DNA from: Oscillospiraceae bacterium
GTDB taxonomy: Bacteria > Bacillota > Clostridia > UBA1381
Reading direction: 5' to 3'
Assembly (NCBI GenBank): GCA_022509005.1
Contig: JAFLUC010000006.1
Location: 1 to 49,950, forward strand
Length of the DNA: 49,950 nucleotides
In this document: positions 1,275 to 49,950 of the stretch, in pieces
Layout: each line of letters begins with the position of its first letter
How positions within the stretch are numbered: position 1 is the stretch's first letter
The notes under the pieces: generated by a model
Seen by the model: only the letters and a program-made list of their open reading frames with translations
Databases searched by the model: none
Told to the model about the DNA's origin: nothing
Position numbers and translations under genes: made by a program

Positions 1275-2051
1275 ATGGAAAAGAAAAACAAAAGAATTGT
1301 GGTTAAGGTAGGCACCTCTACGCTTACATATGACACAGGAAAAATAAATTTAAGACAGATAAATTCACTTGCAAGAGTGCTCTCAGATTTGCGAAATCAA
1401 GGCTATGACGTTATTCTTGTATCCTCCGGCGCTATCGGCGTTGCTGTTGGTAAGCTCGGTCTTTCAAGCCCTCCGACAGATACTAAGGTTAAGCAATCGC
1501 TTGCCGCAATCGGTCAGTGCGAGCTTATGTCGCTTTACGACAAGATGTTTTCAGAATACCATAACACTGTAGCGCAGATTCTGCTCACCCGATCCGATGT
1601 TGATATAGAAAAACGAAAAAACCATACTATTGATACTTTCAACACCCTGCTTGACATGGGCATAATCCCTATCGTAAATGAAAATGACACAGTTTCGGTT
1701 GAAGAAATTGAGTTTGGTGATAACGACAGTCTTTCCGCAATCGTTGCAAAACTTGTAAATGCTGATCTTCTTATTCTGTTTTCTGATATAGATGGGCTTT
1801 ATGACTGTGATCCGCATAAAAATCCGGATGCGCAGCTTATTTCACGCGTAGATGACATTGCGTCAATTGAATCCAACGCAGGTGGTGCAGGCACTTCAAG
1901 AGGCACCGGAGGTATGATTACAAAAATAGAGGCGGCAAAAATTGCCAATGAAGCCGGGATTAGTATGCTCATAGTAAACGGTAAGAATATAGAAACACTA
2001 TATGATATTATCGATGGTAAAAAGGTTGGCACTCTTTTCAAGGATTATTAA
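1275..2051 (+). CDS. proB: Glutamate 5-kinase, short form without PUA domain
   Basis: Phosphorylates L-glutamate to glutamyl-5-phosphate, the first step of proline synthesis. This is an amino-acid-kinase fold protein of 258 residues: VVKVGTSTL at the N-terminus (ATP-site Lys11), [15 protein letters not shown] and FGDNDSLSA (glutamate site), FSDIDGLY, and [15 protein letters not shown] near residue 215. Many ProB proteins carry an extra C-terminal PUA domain of about 100 residues; it is absent here, as in a subset of Firmicutes. It has its own promoter at 1210-1238 and an AAAGGA ribosome site about ten bases before ATG. proA is not next to it in this window. Confidence 0.93.
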
Positions 2052-2119
2052 TACATATTCTTTTCACATCTGCGGCATAATAGTTTCAAGCCATAGTTAT
2101 GAAAGGAATAAGAACAGAG

Positions 2120-2305
2120 ATGAACAAAGAAACTATTGATAACGAGGCTGTATTACACAGCCTCGATTTTGGTTTAGGCGACGATGCTGTTTCTCATAAC
2201 GAAACCACCGGATTGATACCCTCGGCTCCCGTTAATCAATATGAGCTTGATTCGTATAAGGAAATTGACGAATATCAGCAAGTGCCCATAACAGAAGATA
2301 ACTAA
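2120..2305 (+). CDS. Small acidic hypothetical protein
   Basis: A 61-residue acidic protein of unknown function with no membrane segment or cysteine. It is rich in Asp, Glu and polar residues and ends YQQVPITEDN. An upstream in-frame ATG at 2099 has no ribosome site, whereas AAAGGAA (2102-2108) sits 11 bases before the ATG at 2120, so I prefer the latter start. It follows proB by about 70 bases on the same strand and may be read through from it. It ends immediately before a bidirectional terminator. I recognise no family; it is called real because of the ribosome site and the placement of the terminator. Confidence 0.55.
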   Translation: MNKETIDNEAVLHSLDFGLGDDAVSHNETTGLIPSAPVNQYELDSYKEIDEYQQVPITEDN

Positions 2306-2313
2306 ACATGAAA

Positions 2314-2352
2314 ACAGGATGTATCAATTTTGATGCATCCTGTATTTCTTTT
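2314..2352. terminator. Bidirectional terminator between convergent genes
   Basis: A 13-base-pair stem (one G-U pair) around ATTT is followed on the + strand by TTTCTTTT and on the other strand by T-containing sequence. It serves the + strand gene ending at 2305 and the - strand gene ending at 2358. Confidence 0.75.
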
Positions 2353-2357
2353 AAACC

Positions 2358-3641
2358 TTAGTCAATTTCTTCGGGAGCTTCATTTATCTCATTATTGTCT
2401 TCAGGAACATCCTCCATATCAGATGTTTCTTCAGAAATATCCTCCAAGTCGGTGTTCTCTTTGGTGACATCATTTGTTTCGGTCCTTTGCTCAACATTAG
2501 TCACTTCGGCAGCGTCAGGCACAACGCTGTCTATAACACCGCCTGCATTTATATCATATGCGATAACAAGCTTAACATTCCCCCACTGATCCGTGCCTTT
2601 GAACACATAGAACTTTGTATCCGGTCTGAAATACGGGGTTTCGGATTCCGGCACAACAGCACTGTAATCCTGAGTTATAGCATCATGCGCATTCTGCAGA
2701 AGGAAATCTTCAAACCTGCCTACCTGCTCCTGATTGTACCAGAAGGTATTATTTGTATCACAATTTATGTATACTGTTTTTGTTGTGTCCTCCCACTCTA
2801 CCACTGCGCCAAAGGCTTCAGATATAACTCTTAACGGCACATATGATCTTGAATTAATTATAGTCGGCTGTAAATCGGCTATATCAATACTGGTATAATT
2901 TGAATCCATTGTATTTGAATTTACCCACTTTTTAAGTGACCATACATTGTAACCGTTATCATTAAATGTTCTTGCAAACTGGATTATTGTGTCGTTCTTT
3001 GTACAAGTGATAAGCTGCTCTTTAAGAATGGAATTCTTCTGATACTCGTCCCAGAACACATTGATTCCCATTCCTGAGAATACACTTCTTAACGGAACAT
3101 ATGTATGATCGTTCATTATGACAGGCTTAACACCATCTTCAAAGCTCACCGGGGTTTCGTTCAGATACACCTTTACATCAACTGTCTGCACAGGCTCTTC
3201 CTGCGTAGGCTGAGGTATGGTCGGTATGTTATCAAATGAGCTATTGGCAACCTTCGGAAGATTACCTGTATACATCTCACCGCCAAGACTTGAAGTAATC
3301 TGAACCTTTACATTTCCGTTAAGCGTAAGAACTGCTGTACCGTCAAATGAGCTGCCGGTATCATTATTTACAATATGGCAGCCGAGAACAGCCGTATCGC
3401 CGCTTACAGTACCCTCGTCAAACGTATATGTATATTTTTCAACATCATCCTTTATACGCTTGAAACGAATAGTGATTGAAGAATCCGTACAAGTGATAAT
3501 ATCCATCGCGGCATATCCTGTTCCGTCTGTATTCCCCGTATAATATGAACCTATGTATATAGAATTATCAGCAAAAGCCGACGGAATGAGGGTTATAAGC
3601 ATAGTAATGACCGCAATAACCGACACAATCTTTTTCTTCAT
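2358..3641 (-). CDS. Secreted protein with copper-amine-oxidase-N-like stalk domain
   Basis: A 427-residue exported protein. The chosen start (MKKKIVSVIAVITMLITLIP) gives a clear Sec signal peptide ending near SAFA-DN, and GGGAGAGG sits eight bases before ATG; the frame stays open upstream but lacks such a site. The middle, about residues 160-310, carries the paired stalk repeats: NETPVSFEDGV, HTYVPLRSVFSGMGINVFWD and later RSYVPLRVISEAFGAVVEWE. Such domains are common in Clostridia exoproteins as surface or scaffold modules and carry no oxidase activity by themselves. The C-terminal 50 residues are a Glu/Asp-rich, low-complexity tail. The enzymatic role, if any, is unknown. It shares the stalk module with the genes at 11379 and 38676. 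Confidence 0.8.
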   Translation of the reverse strand: MKKKIVSVIAVITMLITLIPSAFADNSIYIGSYYTGNTDGTGYAAMDIITCTDSSITIRFKRIKDDVEKYTYTFDEGTVSGDTAVLGCHIVNNDTGSSFDGTAVLTLNGNVKVQITSSLGGEMYTGNLPKVANSSFDNIPTIPQPTQEEPVQTVDVKVYLNETPVSFEDGVKPVIMNDHTYVPLRSVFSGMGINVFWDEYQKNSILKEQLITCTKNDTIIQFARTFNDNGYNVWSLKKWVNSNTMDSNYTSIDIADLQPTIINSRSYVPLRVISEAFGAVVEWEDTTKTVYINCDTNNTFWYNQEQVGRFEDFLLQNAHDAITQDYSAVVPESETPYFRPDTKFYVFKGTDQWGNVKLVIAYDINAGGVIDSVVPDAAEVTNVEQRTETNDVTKENTDLEDISEETSDMEDVPEDNNEINEAPEEID

Positions 3642-28777: not shown

Positions 28778-28948
28778 ATGGGCAATAAATGTATGTGTAT
28801 GCACGGCGCTTCGAAGGCTGTCGGACTTTCGCTGCTCACATTCAGCATAGGAGTTTTAGCAGGTCTCTTGTGTCCGCTGTATGTCCTTGCGATTGTCGAG
28901 CTTTTCGTCCTTGCGCTGTTAGGTTATCTGTGTCTGCTTAAATTTTAA
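28778..28948 (+). CDS. Small membrane protein, 56 residues, next to spoVM
   Basis: No family recognised. The start ATG follows AAAGGCGG; the longer frame upstream starts before the candidate promoter and lacks a site. The protein has a short N-terminus with three residues of metal-ligand type (CMCMH), then two hydrophobic stretches (GLSLLTFSIGVLAGLLCPLY and VLAIVELFVLALLGYLCLLK) that could form a membrane hairpin. The sequence ends in KF. Location between sipL and spoVM, with a candidate sporulation promoter, suggests a role in the spore or forespore membrane, but that is inference. Confidence 0.6.
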   Translation: MGNKCMCMHGASKAVGLSLLTFSIGVLAGLLCPLYVLAIVELFVLALLGYLCLLKF

Positions 28949-28950
28949 GG

Positions 28951-29035
28951 TGAACAACTTGCTTGCAAGTTGTAGCATAGTGAACAATCTGCTTGCAGAT
29001 TGTAGCATAGCAAAACGAAGTTTTGCGTAGCGTAG
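28951..29035 (+). repeat. Tandem hairpin repeats in the spoVM leader
   Basis: Two 30-base units (28951-28980 and 28981-29010) are followed by a related 25-base unit (29011-29035). Each contains a hairpin and then a linker: (T)GTAGCATAG in units 1 and 2, CGTAGCGTAG in unit 3. The hairpins are CAACTTGC/GCAAGTTG, CAATCTGC/GCAGATTG and GCAAAAC-GAA-GTTTTGC. Between units 1 and 2 the only differences are two base pairs changed on both sides of the stem. The array stops five bases before the spoVM ribosome site. A partial copy lies before murB (49898-49950). Confidence 0.9.
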
Positions 29036-29051
29036 AAAAGGGGGTATATCT

Positions 29052-29120
29052 ATGAAAATTGTAGTTAAACGCGTACCGAAGGGACTTTCAGGTATTATCA
29101 AGCTGATTTTCGGATTTTAA
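29052..29120 (+). CDS. spoVM: Stage V sporulation protein SpoVM (22 residues)
   Basis: A 22-codon gene, far below ordinary gene-finding limits. It begins MKIVVKRVPKGLSGIIKL and ends with IFGF. It aligns without gap over the first 21 residues with Bacillus SpoVM (26 residues): M-K at the start, basic residue 7, Pro9-Lys10, Leu12, Gly14-Ile15 and Gly21 are shared, as is the amphipathic helix with a kink-making Pro9. SpoVM inserts into the outer forespore membrane, senses its curvature and recruits SpoIVA. The ribosome site AAAGGGGGT lies eight bases before ATG. It lies close to sipL, whose product also binds SpoIVA. The stop is directly followed by a terminator. Confidence 0.85.
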   Translation: MKIVVKRVPKGLSGIIKLIFGF

Positions 29121-29125
29121 TACAT

Positions 29126-29159
29126 AACAAAACGACACAGCGCGCTGTGTCGTTTTGTT
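29126..29159. terminator. Bidirectional terminator between spoVM and rnjA
   Basis: A perfect palindrome of 34 bases, with long arms AACAAAACGACACAG meeting at a GCGC centre. Its T-rich ends serve both convergent genes. Confidence 0.85.
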
Positions 29160-29161
29160 AT

Positions 29162-36306: not shown

Positions 36307-36328
36307 ACTTGAATTTAATAAATAGGCG

Positions 36329-36365
36329 AGCGCTCGCGGAGCTATTTTCCGCGAGTGCTTTTTTA
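36329..36365 (+). terminator. Terminator of the rhaB-ligase unit
   Basis: AGCGCTCGCGGA (36329-36340) with TCCGCGAGTGCT (36348-36359) around a seven-base loop, then TTTTTT. Confidence 0.85.
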
Positions 36366-36527: not shown

Positions 36528-38429
36528 TTGAAGCTATTTAAAAGATTTTTGTCAGCAGCTATCGCTCTTGTGATGGCGATGTCGCTTATGCCGACACTTG
36601 CGCTGGCGGATGACGGGCCGATATTTAGCGGCGGTGACGGTACAGCAGACAATCCATATCAGATTTCAAACGTGAAGGATCTTACTGACCTTGCCGAGGC
36701 GGTAAACGGCGGTGAAACTTACTCAGGTAAACATTTTGAGTTAACGGATGATATCAATCTCGGTGGCGAGAGCATGCCATGGACGCCGATCGGACAGGAC
36801 ACAGAATCTAAACAAGATGACTTTCAAGGTTTCAAGTTTTCCGGGATCTTTGACGGTGCCAATCATAAGATAACCGGACTGTATATAAATTCACAAAAAG
36901 ATTATCAGGGCTTATTTGGATATATCGAAAAAAATGGTATAATTCAGAATCTCAGCGTGGATGGCTCTGTTTCAGGTGAAAATTACGTCGGTGTAATTGT
37001 TGGATATAGTAGAGGTAAAATATTAAAATGTTATAATAGCGGAACTGTTTCAGGAATCAGGAACAGCAGCAATCTCGGCGGCATTGTAGGAATGAATGAT
37101 GGCGGTACAATATCAGACTGCTATAACACAGGAAAGATCACAAGTTATGGAAACGCCGGCGGCATTGCAGGACAGAATAAACAAGGCATAATATCAAACT
37201 GCTATAACATCGGCGAACTTATAGGCGAAGGATATGCCGGTGGCATTGTAGGATGGAATCACACAGACAGCACAATATCAGACTGTCACAACGATGGTCC
37301 TGTTATAAGTAGAGAAAGATACAGTTATGCCGGGGGCATTGCTGGAAGTAATGCCTTAAACAGTGCAATATCGAACTGCTATAATACCGGAACTGTCGAA
37401 AGCAATAGTACTATCAGCTATGCCGGCGGTATTGCAGGAGATAATGGAGAGAAGTGCAAAATAGAAAACTGCTATAACAACGGTTCCGTTATCTGTACCA
37501 CCTCTGATTACGGCTATGGCGGTGTCGGCGGTATTGCCGGGCAAAATTATAGTCCATTGGTATCAAACTGCTATAACACTGGAGCTATTTCCAGCAGCGG
37601 TGCAAGTGGTGCATTACTATATGTTGGAGGTATTGTGGGATATAATGCTGAGAATGAGCAATATGGCGCCACAACAACGAACTGCTATTATCTTGAAGGC
37701 ACTGCTGACGGTGGGATAAATGGCGAGGATAATTTAGGGAAAGCAGAAGTGAGAGATGAAACCGCATTCGCTTCCGGTGAAGTGGCGTGGCTGCTGCAAA
37801 ACAACGCCGATCCCGCTCAGTCCGGCTTAGTTTGGGGACAGCAGATTATAACAGGGCAGACAGACGATTATCCGATTTTTGCTTCCGAAGAGGCAGAAAG
37901 AGTATTTAAAATTGATTGCTCAACTCTTAATGATGTAATTCTTGCAACGAAATATACAAATACAGATGGTTCGATAGTATTACCGGATGAATCGGATTTA
38001 CCGGAGACTCTGCAAGGCAATTTCAGTCATTGGACGTTCGACAAAAAGGACGCTGACAAGAATTTCACCAACGAAACGCAACTTAATAAGACACTTGCTC
38101 CCATTAAGGATAGTATGACCGTTTATGCGTTACCGAAGTTTGATGTGAAAATTGATGTTATTGCAGACCATGGAACCGGTAAATATGCAGATACTATAGC
38201 AACAGGCTTCTTAGCAGACATCACAACCTATGCGGAAACTGCATCGATATCAAAGCTTTTGTTTACTGTTACTGCAAACGAAAAAATAGCTGATACAGAT
38301 ACTTTTGAAAAAGATGTAAATATCAAGCCAGAAATAACTATTTCTCGTGGTGCCGGTATTATCATGGGCTTTGTTATAGACCAGATTTTTGATGAGGACG
38401 CTGACGTTACACTCAAGGTAGTAGAGTAA
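36528..38429 (+). CDS. Exported GLUG-repeat surface protein
   Basis: About 633 residues. A GTG at 36519 sits inside the ribosome site; the TTG at 36528 lies eight bases after GGGAG, so I prefer it. The signal peptide is KLFKRFLSAAIALVMAMSLM with cleavage near ALA-DD. A conserved opening (DGTADNPYQISNVKDLTDLA) leads into about eight GLUG-type repeats (YVGVIVGYSRGKILKCYNSG, AGGIAGQNKQGIISNCYNIG and similar; residues about 145-400), a beta-helix-like module found in adhesins and IgA-peptidase-type proteins. The C-terminal third is beta-rich with no SLH, LPXTG or enzyme signature. Likely adhesin-like; ligand unknown. Confidence 0.82.
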   Translation: MKLFKRFLSAAIALVMAMSLMPTLALADDGPIFSGGDGTADNPYQISNVKDLTDLAEAVNGGETYSGKHFELTDDINLGGESMPWTPIGQDTESKQDDFQGFKFSGIFDGANHKITGLYINSQKDYQGLFGYIEKNGIIQNLSVDGSVSGENYVGVIVGYSRGKILKCYNSGTVSGIRNSSNLGGIVGMNDGGTISDCYNTGKITSYGNAGGIAGQNKQGIISNCYNIGELIGEGYAGGIVGWNHTDSTISDCHNDGPVISRERYSYAGGIAGSNALNSAISNCYNTGTVESNSTISYAGGIAGDNGEKCKIENCYNNGSVICTTSDYGYGGVGGIAGQNYSPLVSNCYNTGAISSSGASGALLYVGGIVGYNAENEQYGATTTNCYYLEGTADGGINGEDNLGKAEVRDETAFASGEVAWLLQNNADPAQSGLVWGQQIITGQTDDYPIFASEEAERVFKIDCSTLNDVILATKYTNTDGSIVLPDESDLPETLQGNFSHWTFDKKDADKNFTNETQLNKTLAPIKDSMTVYALPKFDVKIDVIADHGTGKYADTIATGFLADITTYAETASISKLLFTVTANEKIADTDTFEKDVNIKPEITISRGAGIIMGFVIDQIFDEDADVTLKVVE

Positions 38430-48991: not shown

Positions 48992-49885
48992 TTAATCTCC
49001 TACGAGTCTTACCTCAGGCTCTAAATCTACACCAAATTTTTCCTTAACCGTTTTTTGTACATACTCTATTAAATCAAGCACATTCTTTGCCGTTGCGCCG
49101 CCCTTATTTATAATAAATCCGGCATGCTTTTCGCTTACTTGTGCGCCGCCTATAGAATAACCCATAAGTCCCGCATCCTGTATAAGCTTTCCGGCAAAAT
49201 ACCCGTCCGGACGTTTAAACGTACTGCCCGCCGACGGCATATTAAGCGGCTGCTTATCAGATCTTCGCTTATTATAATCAGCCATTGCTCTCCGTATCTC
49301 AGATTCATCGCCTTTTTCAAGCTCCAGTACCGCCGATAAGATGTATTTTCCGCCGCCGGAAAATACACTTTTCCTATATCCGAAGGCACACTCGGAATTA
49401 TATATTGTTTTTATATTTCCTTCATCATCAATATAGGTAACGCTCTTTATTATATCCTTAAGCTCCCCGCCATACGCTCCGGCGTTCATAAATATTCCGC
49501 CACCGAGCGTTCCTGGAATTCCCGAAAGTGGTTCAAAACCCGTGAGCTCCGCTTTTAAAACTGCTGAGGCAAGCTTTGACATTAAAATCCCCGCCTGTGC
49601 TTTTACGATTGTGCCGGTTATTTCATATTCGCTCATATTCTGGGCAATCTGAATTACAAGTCCTCTTATTCCGTTATCGCTTACAAGCATGTTTGAACCG
49701 TTGCCTACAATCATAAACGGCACATTCTGCAACTTTGCCTCTTTAATAAGAGCAGCAAGCTCCTTTTCAGCCGAAACGCTTATAAAAACATCCGCCGGAC
49801 CGCCTATACGGAAGCTGGTATGCTTTGACATCGGCTCTTTTACTAAAAGCTGCGGTGATATTTCCTTGAATTTTTCAATTACCAT
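48992..49885 (-). CDS. murB: UDP-N-acetylenolpyruvoylglucosamine reductase
   Basis: FAD- and NADPH-dependent reduction to UDP-MurNAc in peptidoglycan synthesis. The 297 residues show SFRIGGPADVF, GNGSNMLVSD, PGTLGGGIFMNAGAYGGE (FAD site), CAFGYRKSVF, MPSAGSTFKRP (catalytic Ser) and a C-terminal LEPEVRLVGD (Glu). Type II length. Ribosome site AAGGGGA before ATG. The spoVM-type hairpin repeat lies directly upstream (49898-49950). First gene of murB-rapZ-yvcK-whiA-dnaE, with very short gaps. Confidence 0.96.
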   Translation of the reverse strand: MVIEKFKEISPQLLVKEPMSKHTSFRIGGPADVFISVSAEKELAALIKEAKLQNVPFMIVGNGSNMLVSDNGIRGLVIQIAQNMSEYEITGTIVKAQAGILMSKLASAVLKAELTGFEPLSGIPGTLGGGIFMNAGAYGGELKDIIKSVTYIDDEGNIKTIYNSECAFGYRKSVFSGGGKYILSAVLELEKGDESEIRRAMADYNKRRSDKQPLNMPSAGSTFKRPDGYFAGKLIQDAGLMGYSIGGAQVSEKHAGFIINKGGATAKNVLDLIEYVQKTVKEKFGVDLEPEVRLVGD

Positions 49886-49897
49886 ATAAGTCCCCTT

Positions 49898-49950
49898 CTA
49901 CGCTACGCAAAACTTCGTTTTGCTATGCTACAACTTGCAAGCAAGTTGTT
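49898..49950 (-). repeat. Second copy of the hairpin repeat, in the murB leader (cut by window end)
   Basis: Read on the - strand, these 53 bases are identical to one 30-base unit of the spoVM leader array minus its first two bases (hairpin CAACTTGC/GCAAGTTG, then TAGCATAG), joined to the third unit (GCAAAAC-GAA-GTTTTGC, then GTAGCGTAG). The CT/AG arms identify it as the unit 1 version; the unit 2 version is missing. The copy ends six bases before the murB ribosome site. More units may lie beyond the window. Confidence 0.9.

Follow-up and report, generated by a model that had tools for sequence, protein, structure and literature searches.

The window analysed here, the complete contig C108 of 49,950 bases, comes from the genome of a gut bacterium, Candidatus Ornithomonoglobus (2.56 Mb in 151 contigs, 95% complete). 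At its far end lies murB, encoding UDP-N-acetylmuramate dehydrogenase (48992–49885, minus strand; NF010480 and TIGR00179 above cut-off, Pfam MurB_C), preceded on the same strand by a two-hairpin element at 49898–49950. This copy covers positions 6–58 of a 58-position covariance model, R1 (cmsearch 78.5 bits), its 5′ part being lost where the contig ends inside it. Fold and covariation place hairpin 1 at 49930–49949 and hairpin 2 at 49907–49923 (both minus strand). The murB Shine–Dalgarno (SD) tract AAGGGG (49892–49897, minus strand), assigned from sequence and offsets, abuts the element without a gap, and the murB start codon follows 12 nt 3′ of the element. A further copy on the plus strand (28978–29035; hairpin 1 at 28984–29003, hairpin 2 at 29010–29026; R1 cmsearch 87.1 bits) stands in the leader of a spoVM-like 22-aa ORF (29052–29120, plus strand). 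This ORF was recognized by NF033436 SpoVM_broad with an E-value of 0.0026 and 17.7 bits, under the 31-bit cut-off, and had no Pfam match. Here too the SD tract, AAAAGGGGG (29036–29044, plus strand; sequence and offsets), abuts the element directly, while an additional hairpin-1 unit is found on its 5′ side (28948–28980, plus strand; sequence and inverted-repeat pair I2). A conserved 9-nt tail, GTAGCGTAG, forms the spacer between hairpin 2 and the SD.

A preliminary description of this DNA had reported a double hairpin directly before the murB ribosome site that recurs in the spoVM leader, and this is borne out by fold, sequence and cmsearch. The gap of five to six bases that it placed between the hairpins and the ribosome site does not exist, as the conserved part stops at 49898 and the SD tract begins at the adjoining base. 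Its 53-base identity between the spoVM and murB sites holds if the middle spoVM unit is skipped but fails contiguously, where the two are 93% identical. Several other features of the window were noted in passing. A perfect 19-bp inverted repeat right after the spoVM-like ORF (29124–29161) is probably its terminator. On the minus strand, 28919–29101 stays an open frame antisense to the element, which gene callers could take for a small protein. Two interleaved motifs of 25–28 nt, in seven copies 81–102 bases apart (37015–37646), probably belong to a repeat-containing gene, and a GC-rich overlapping palindrome, GCGAGCGCTCGC, lies at 36317–36346.

The element is a non-coding 58-nt double hairpin with the majority consensus AGGTGAACAACTCGCTTGCGAGTTGTAGCATAGCAAAACGAAGTTTTGCGTAGCGTAG. 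In an alignment of 26 copies (A1), all 390 cells of the 15 named pairs hold standard pairs, and 8 of the 15 pairs are altered on both sides. The covariation score was 0.281, compared with 0.145 (s.d. 0.011) for shuffled alignments, and none of 500 shuffles reached the observed value, a proportion that is not a probability because the copies are closely related. When pairing partners were slid, covariation did not exceed 0.062, although this control leans towards the structure since the same sequences were used to choose it. A measure of further pair types did not rise above shuffles (439 of 500 reached the observed value). One-sided pair changes occur in five cells, all of the G–U type and none A–C. 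RNAalifold gave both hairpins again, together with a two-pair closing stem around hairpin 2, and single sequences showed only a moderate gain in folding over their shuffles (z −1.3 to −2.4). That the hairpins matter is evident from the compensatory changes, but a mobile element could require them simply in order to move. We also considered a coding leader peptide: the stretch from GTGAAC to GCGTAG is open for 16 codons, but the in-frame TTG at SD distance varies and the stems covary, and the candidate was rejected.

R1, which was built from 26 copies (23 from the host genome and 3 from other genomes), yielded 42 matches in the host genome at E ≤ 0.01. BLAST returned 35 matches there at E ≤ 0.001, and a pattern for hairpin 2 gave 13 forward and 22 reverse matches, with three sites counted on both strands; its reversed control gave 1 and 0, respectively. 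The repeat reported in the preliminary description is thus real and far above chance. Copies differ in unit number, as had been claimed: tandem copies occur on contigs C137 and C102, and single-hairpin forms precede dnaJ, ruvB, corA-like, lytB, DUF1858 and DUF2975 genes at the same position, which eroded forms of the element also keep relative to the gene. At murB itself, unit number is not readable because the contig stops within the element. Searches of a collection of genome contigs returned no match to an exact hairpin 2–tail pattern and two matches to a longer pattern with the hairpin 2 loop left open; an exact-pattern scan of viral contigs returned none. Eight copies are found at the ends of contigs, where a repeat that breaks short-read assembly should often fall, and one array contains an N gap. 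These are the features that an artefact of assembly or binning would also leave, but the other copies are internal to contigs and flanked by genes on either side, and relatives of the element are present in further genomes, making such an artefact extremely improbable.

To place the copies with respect to genes, we scored a match as a leader copy when it was followed by an SD-like motif and an ORF of at least 60 aa beginning no more than 35 nt downstream. The automated rule selected 31 of the 42 R1 matches, and the remaining 11 were inspected by hand. Three are truncated where a contig stops (C15, C144 and C68); five are internal units of arrays, each array reaching a leader with its last unit (three on C102, with the N gap intervening, and one each on C137 and C86); and three are leaders that the rule missed, namely spoVM, whose ORF is too short, C69, whose SD is AGAGAG, and C72:11457, where the match overruns the start. 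All 39 placeable matches, 31 assigned by the rule and 8 by inspection, therefore lie on the sense strand, either as leader copies or as internal units of arrays in leaders. Under a stricter leader rule, 19 of 26 copies qualified, compared with 466 of 20 000 random positions in the window. The downstream ORFs are real genes (a Pfam domain in 36 of 38 scanned) with unrelated products, including CTP synthase, release factor 1, Der, β-ketoacyl synthase, aconitase, HPF, PcrA, asparagine synthase and GerA/GerAC proteins.

Offsets were measured on those two-hairpin copies that form the last unit and have sequence downstream of them (26 in all). From the end of the element to the first GG of the SD, the mean distance is 3.33 nt (s.d. 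1.03), a GG being present in 24 of the 26 copies and missing on C46 and C69; to the start codon, it is 15.77 nt (s.d. 2.22, range 12–22, n = 26). Because the offset to the SD is the tighter of the two, we take the SD, and not the start codon, to be the anchor. The fixed spacing to a start site that the preliminary description proposed accordingly applies, tightly, to the SD, while spacing to the start codon is looser. The check that it proposed, the distance of the copies to the nearest start codon, puts every one of the 26 scored copies 12–22 nt before a gene start. Such a distribution could in principle arise by random landing, with selection keeping solely the insertions just before an SD: insertions within genes would be lost, and the intergenic room of a compact genome would lie largely near starts. 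We consider this unlikely, as the neutral room that should then have been colonized (gene ends and promoter-upstream DNA, in either orientation) is empty of placeable matches (0 of 39), and a spread of 1 nt relative to the SD seems too tight for a filter on spacing alone.

Comparison with related genomes revealed empty sites. None of 40 orthologous leaders in the congeners G015, G003, G005 and G011 carries the element, whether judged by eye or by the model at E ≤ 0.1; the 40 leaders represent 13 occupied genes, not each of them in each of the four congeners. The empty leaders have an ordinary SD where the right flank of the element would begin. A search at the DNA level across 16 congeneric genomes, the host among them, returned 33 matches in the host and one each in G001, G005 and G015. 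Taken together, the empty orthologous leaders and the 16-genome search indicate that the burst is lineage-specific and recent. One half of the preliminary interpretation, a mobile element that favours leaders, is well supported by the empty sites in four congeners and the near-absolute leader location. An integron cassette was rejected as a candidate, since the sequence upstream of several occupied genes appears to match the empty sites in relatives. Of the lone copies in congeners, L047 (G015) precedes a short coiled-coil-like ORF and L048 (G001) one with a weak resemblance to TrbL, a hint that the repeat travels between genomes on mobile elements. Separately, some congener leaders contain other, unrelated hairpins before the SD (L140, L143 and L124, in orthologous pyrG and oadA leaders of G011 and G003), which suggests that the pyrG and oadA leaders accept hairpin insertions repeatedly.

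The other half of that interpretation, a portable post-transcriptional control, would have the hairpins kept as an mRNA stabilizer, ribosome standby site or insulator and spread through their usefulness. The strictly sense-strand leader location with intact SD spacing, the compensatory changes in the stems and the recurrence of a similar organization in several genera are all consistent with this, and the five one-sided changes, being all G–U, are as expected of a fold in single-stranded sense-strand RNA. On the other hand, the downstream genes have no evident function in common and the 40 congener orthologues do without the element. Copies are also found in the leader of a conjugation gene and within traG, where a benefit is not evident, and six loci (56,906 bases) gave no match to an Rfam family above the gathering score. 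We judge a control element to be improbable as the main explanation.

Aligned copies begin with A(G/A)GTGAAC or a near variant and end with GCGTAG. The run of A residues 3′ of GCGTAG varies by site and is missing where the target SD starts with G (L047, L176 and L179), and we therefore count it as part of the target. In A1 the ends, AGGTGAAC and CGTAGCGTAG, lack complementarity, and no terminal inverted repeats are present. Flanks were compared with the 40 empty orthologous leaders and with seven traG homologues; a target duplication longer than 1–2 nt could not be fixed because the left end (AGGTGA) and the target are both SD-like. A GTAG stands 3′ of each hairpin on the sense strand, with an ambiguous foot end. 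One insertion lies within a gene: in L076 (JAQXZB010000095.1), a close relative of the element at 775–832 interrupts a conjugative traG-like coding region (Pfam TraG-D_C). Across this junction, six of seven traG homologues have Gly-Gly and one (G007) has Gly-Lys; which state came first decides whether the element entered an SD-like Gly-Gly stretch or a run of A behind GG. Both options are purine-rich on the strand of the element. As this copy is inside traG and not before a gene, insertion does not strictly depend on the SD of a gene leader. Next to the truncated traG, this conjugative region also contains a 603-aa reverse-transcriptase/maturase-like ORF (1370–3181), which we take to be of the group II intron type.

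R1 matches were found in 28 of 70 genomes of the family, whereas none of 23 genomes from three other families of the order matched (E ≤ 1e-5, completeness ≥ 70). From selected loci in genomes other than the host, 76 non-tandem matches were examined; L047 and L048 had been added before the count by type, and four weak matches had been left out (L176 1464–1499 and three short reverse-strand palindrome matches). Type A repeats have an A/T-rich second hairpin and end in GCGTAG or GCGTAA; of 26 outside the host genome, 12 are at an SD, with the leader copy L048 set aside in error by the tandem filter; the 14 non-leader cases include L180, L182 and L187, which are orthologous copies of one old insertion. 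Type B, a sister type of the form GTAGGC…GCCGTAG, is at an SD in 3 of 50 cases, one of which, L242 (a 40-aa ORF), is probably false; the leader copy L236 was miscounted as type B. A distribution that is random with respect to start codons or mainly at gene ends, named in the preliminary description as evidence against its proposal, is thus absent from the host genome and present for type B in other genera. Type A leader copies precede the ribosomal protein genes rplN (L14; G029 and G036), rplQ (L17; G005) and rpmD (L30; G047), as well as pth (G031), feoB (G022), a porA-like oxidoreductase gene (G047), a serine recombinase gene and, in L224, a conjugation gene for a TrbL-like protein (TrbL_2). 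SD-adjacent insertion therefore recurs in several genera with different stem sequences, and it is not universal. With the covariance model, which is looser than the DNA search, G003 gave 33 matches, and those inspected were type B. Type B repeats often lie between CCCCTTTGAC-like and CAAAGGGG-like arms, nested in another palindromic repeat away from an SD, at loci in G003 and genus g7 (e.g. L217, L218, L219, L228 and L242).

With its repetition, empty sites in congeners, location, orientation and conserved stems all directly observed, the element is probably best explained as a recently spread miniature mobile repeat, with one-unit and many-unit variants, inserted at the 5′ edge of a coding-strand purine tract, in most cases the SD, in the direction of the gene. 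Choice of SD-like A/G tracts as targets, combined with loss of insertions within genes, would account for the observed location. Insertion would leave both the SD and its distance to the start intact, making each event tolerable and presumably neutral; tolerable insertions would explain how the element can occupy the leaders of presumably essential genes (murB, pyrG, der and prfA), and intact spacing together with loss of in-gene insertions would yield the observed distribution. Once transcribed, the hairpins would lengthen the leader and could tune mRNA decay or initiation.

The weakest step in this scheme is the mobiliser: the hairpins may serve a trans-acting enzyme as its substrate. One candidate would be a RAYT, an IS200-type Y1 tyrosine transposase, acting on a REP-like element. 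The small imperfect palindromes, unpaired GTAG tags and head-to-tail arrays fit such a reading, and RAYTs are hypothesized to move REPs (PMC3733652). However, Y1_Tnp (PF01797) had no match in the 95%-complete host genome at E ≤ 0.001, while 5 of 14 control genomes were positive; the GTAG of this element lies 3′ of each hairpin; and REPs, according to the same paper, are mostly at the 3′ ends of ORFs, opposite to the 5′ leaders occupied here. We regard a RAYT-driven origin as quite unlikely. The TnpB domain was not found in the host genome either. IS110 was also considered as mobiliser and rejected, there being one clear copy (C2:257) but no model match nearby.

For the miniature mobile repeat that we favour, a more specific mechanism can be put forward tentatively, with the odds close to balanced but slightly against it: the element family may home to the SD. 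A recombinase acting in trans, or alternatively a process guided by RNA or copying it, would read the A/G-rich SD of the coding strand and insert the double hairpin in a single orientation just 5′ of it. On this SD-homing reading, arrays would grow unit by unit because an SD again lies downstream of every new copy. If true, the ribosome-binding site itself would be the safe harbour of the element, an unusual strategy, and a structured leader would have been added to dozens of mRNAs at once without stopping genes expected to be essential. The occupied genes would provide a natural test of the extent to which a hairpin upstream of the SD changes translation and decay, since sister species supply orthologues with clean empty sites, and also a lead towards an enzyme specific for SD tracts.

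Small mobile palindromic repeats are a known kind of element; the target is what is unusual here. The open-access literature that we searched held no description of an SD-targeted hairpin repeat or of repeats in Monoglobus relatives. The element resembles MITEs in being miniature, non-coding and highly base-paired, but lacks terminal inverted repeats, and no target duplication beyond 1–2 nt could be fixed. REPs, as characterized in PMC3733652, carry GTAG motifs, occur in many copies and in dimers or arrays, mostly beside the 3′ ends of ORFs, and are associated with RAYTs. The small GTAG palindromes, high copy number and arrays are shared with REPs and BIMEs, whereas the location in 5′ leaders (39/39 placeable) and the lack of a detectable Y1 transposase in the genome are not. 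The pneumococcal BOX, RUP and SPRITE repeats are presented in PMC3049150 as modular hairpin repeats of varying unit number, probably parasitic and transcribed within leaders, and as over-represented between convergent genes. Modular hairpins, varying unit number and presence in leaders are points of likeness to these repeats; in contrast, none of the 39 placeable matches here lies between convergent genes, the comparison with BOX being one of description and not of sequence. Nearest in behaviour are MIRUs (mycobacterial interspersed repetitive units), which according to a recent review (PMC12548453) appear to be mobile, insert at start codons and hardly disturb the downstream gene. In both cases a short, seemingly mobile repeat has inserted at a translation signal, but MIRUs enter at the start codon and bring with them a coupled, overlapping ORF, whereas the element described here is non-coding, stops 12–22 nt short of the start codon and preserves the SD.
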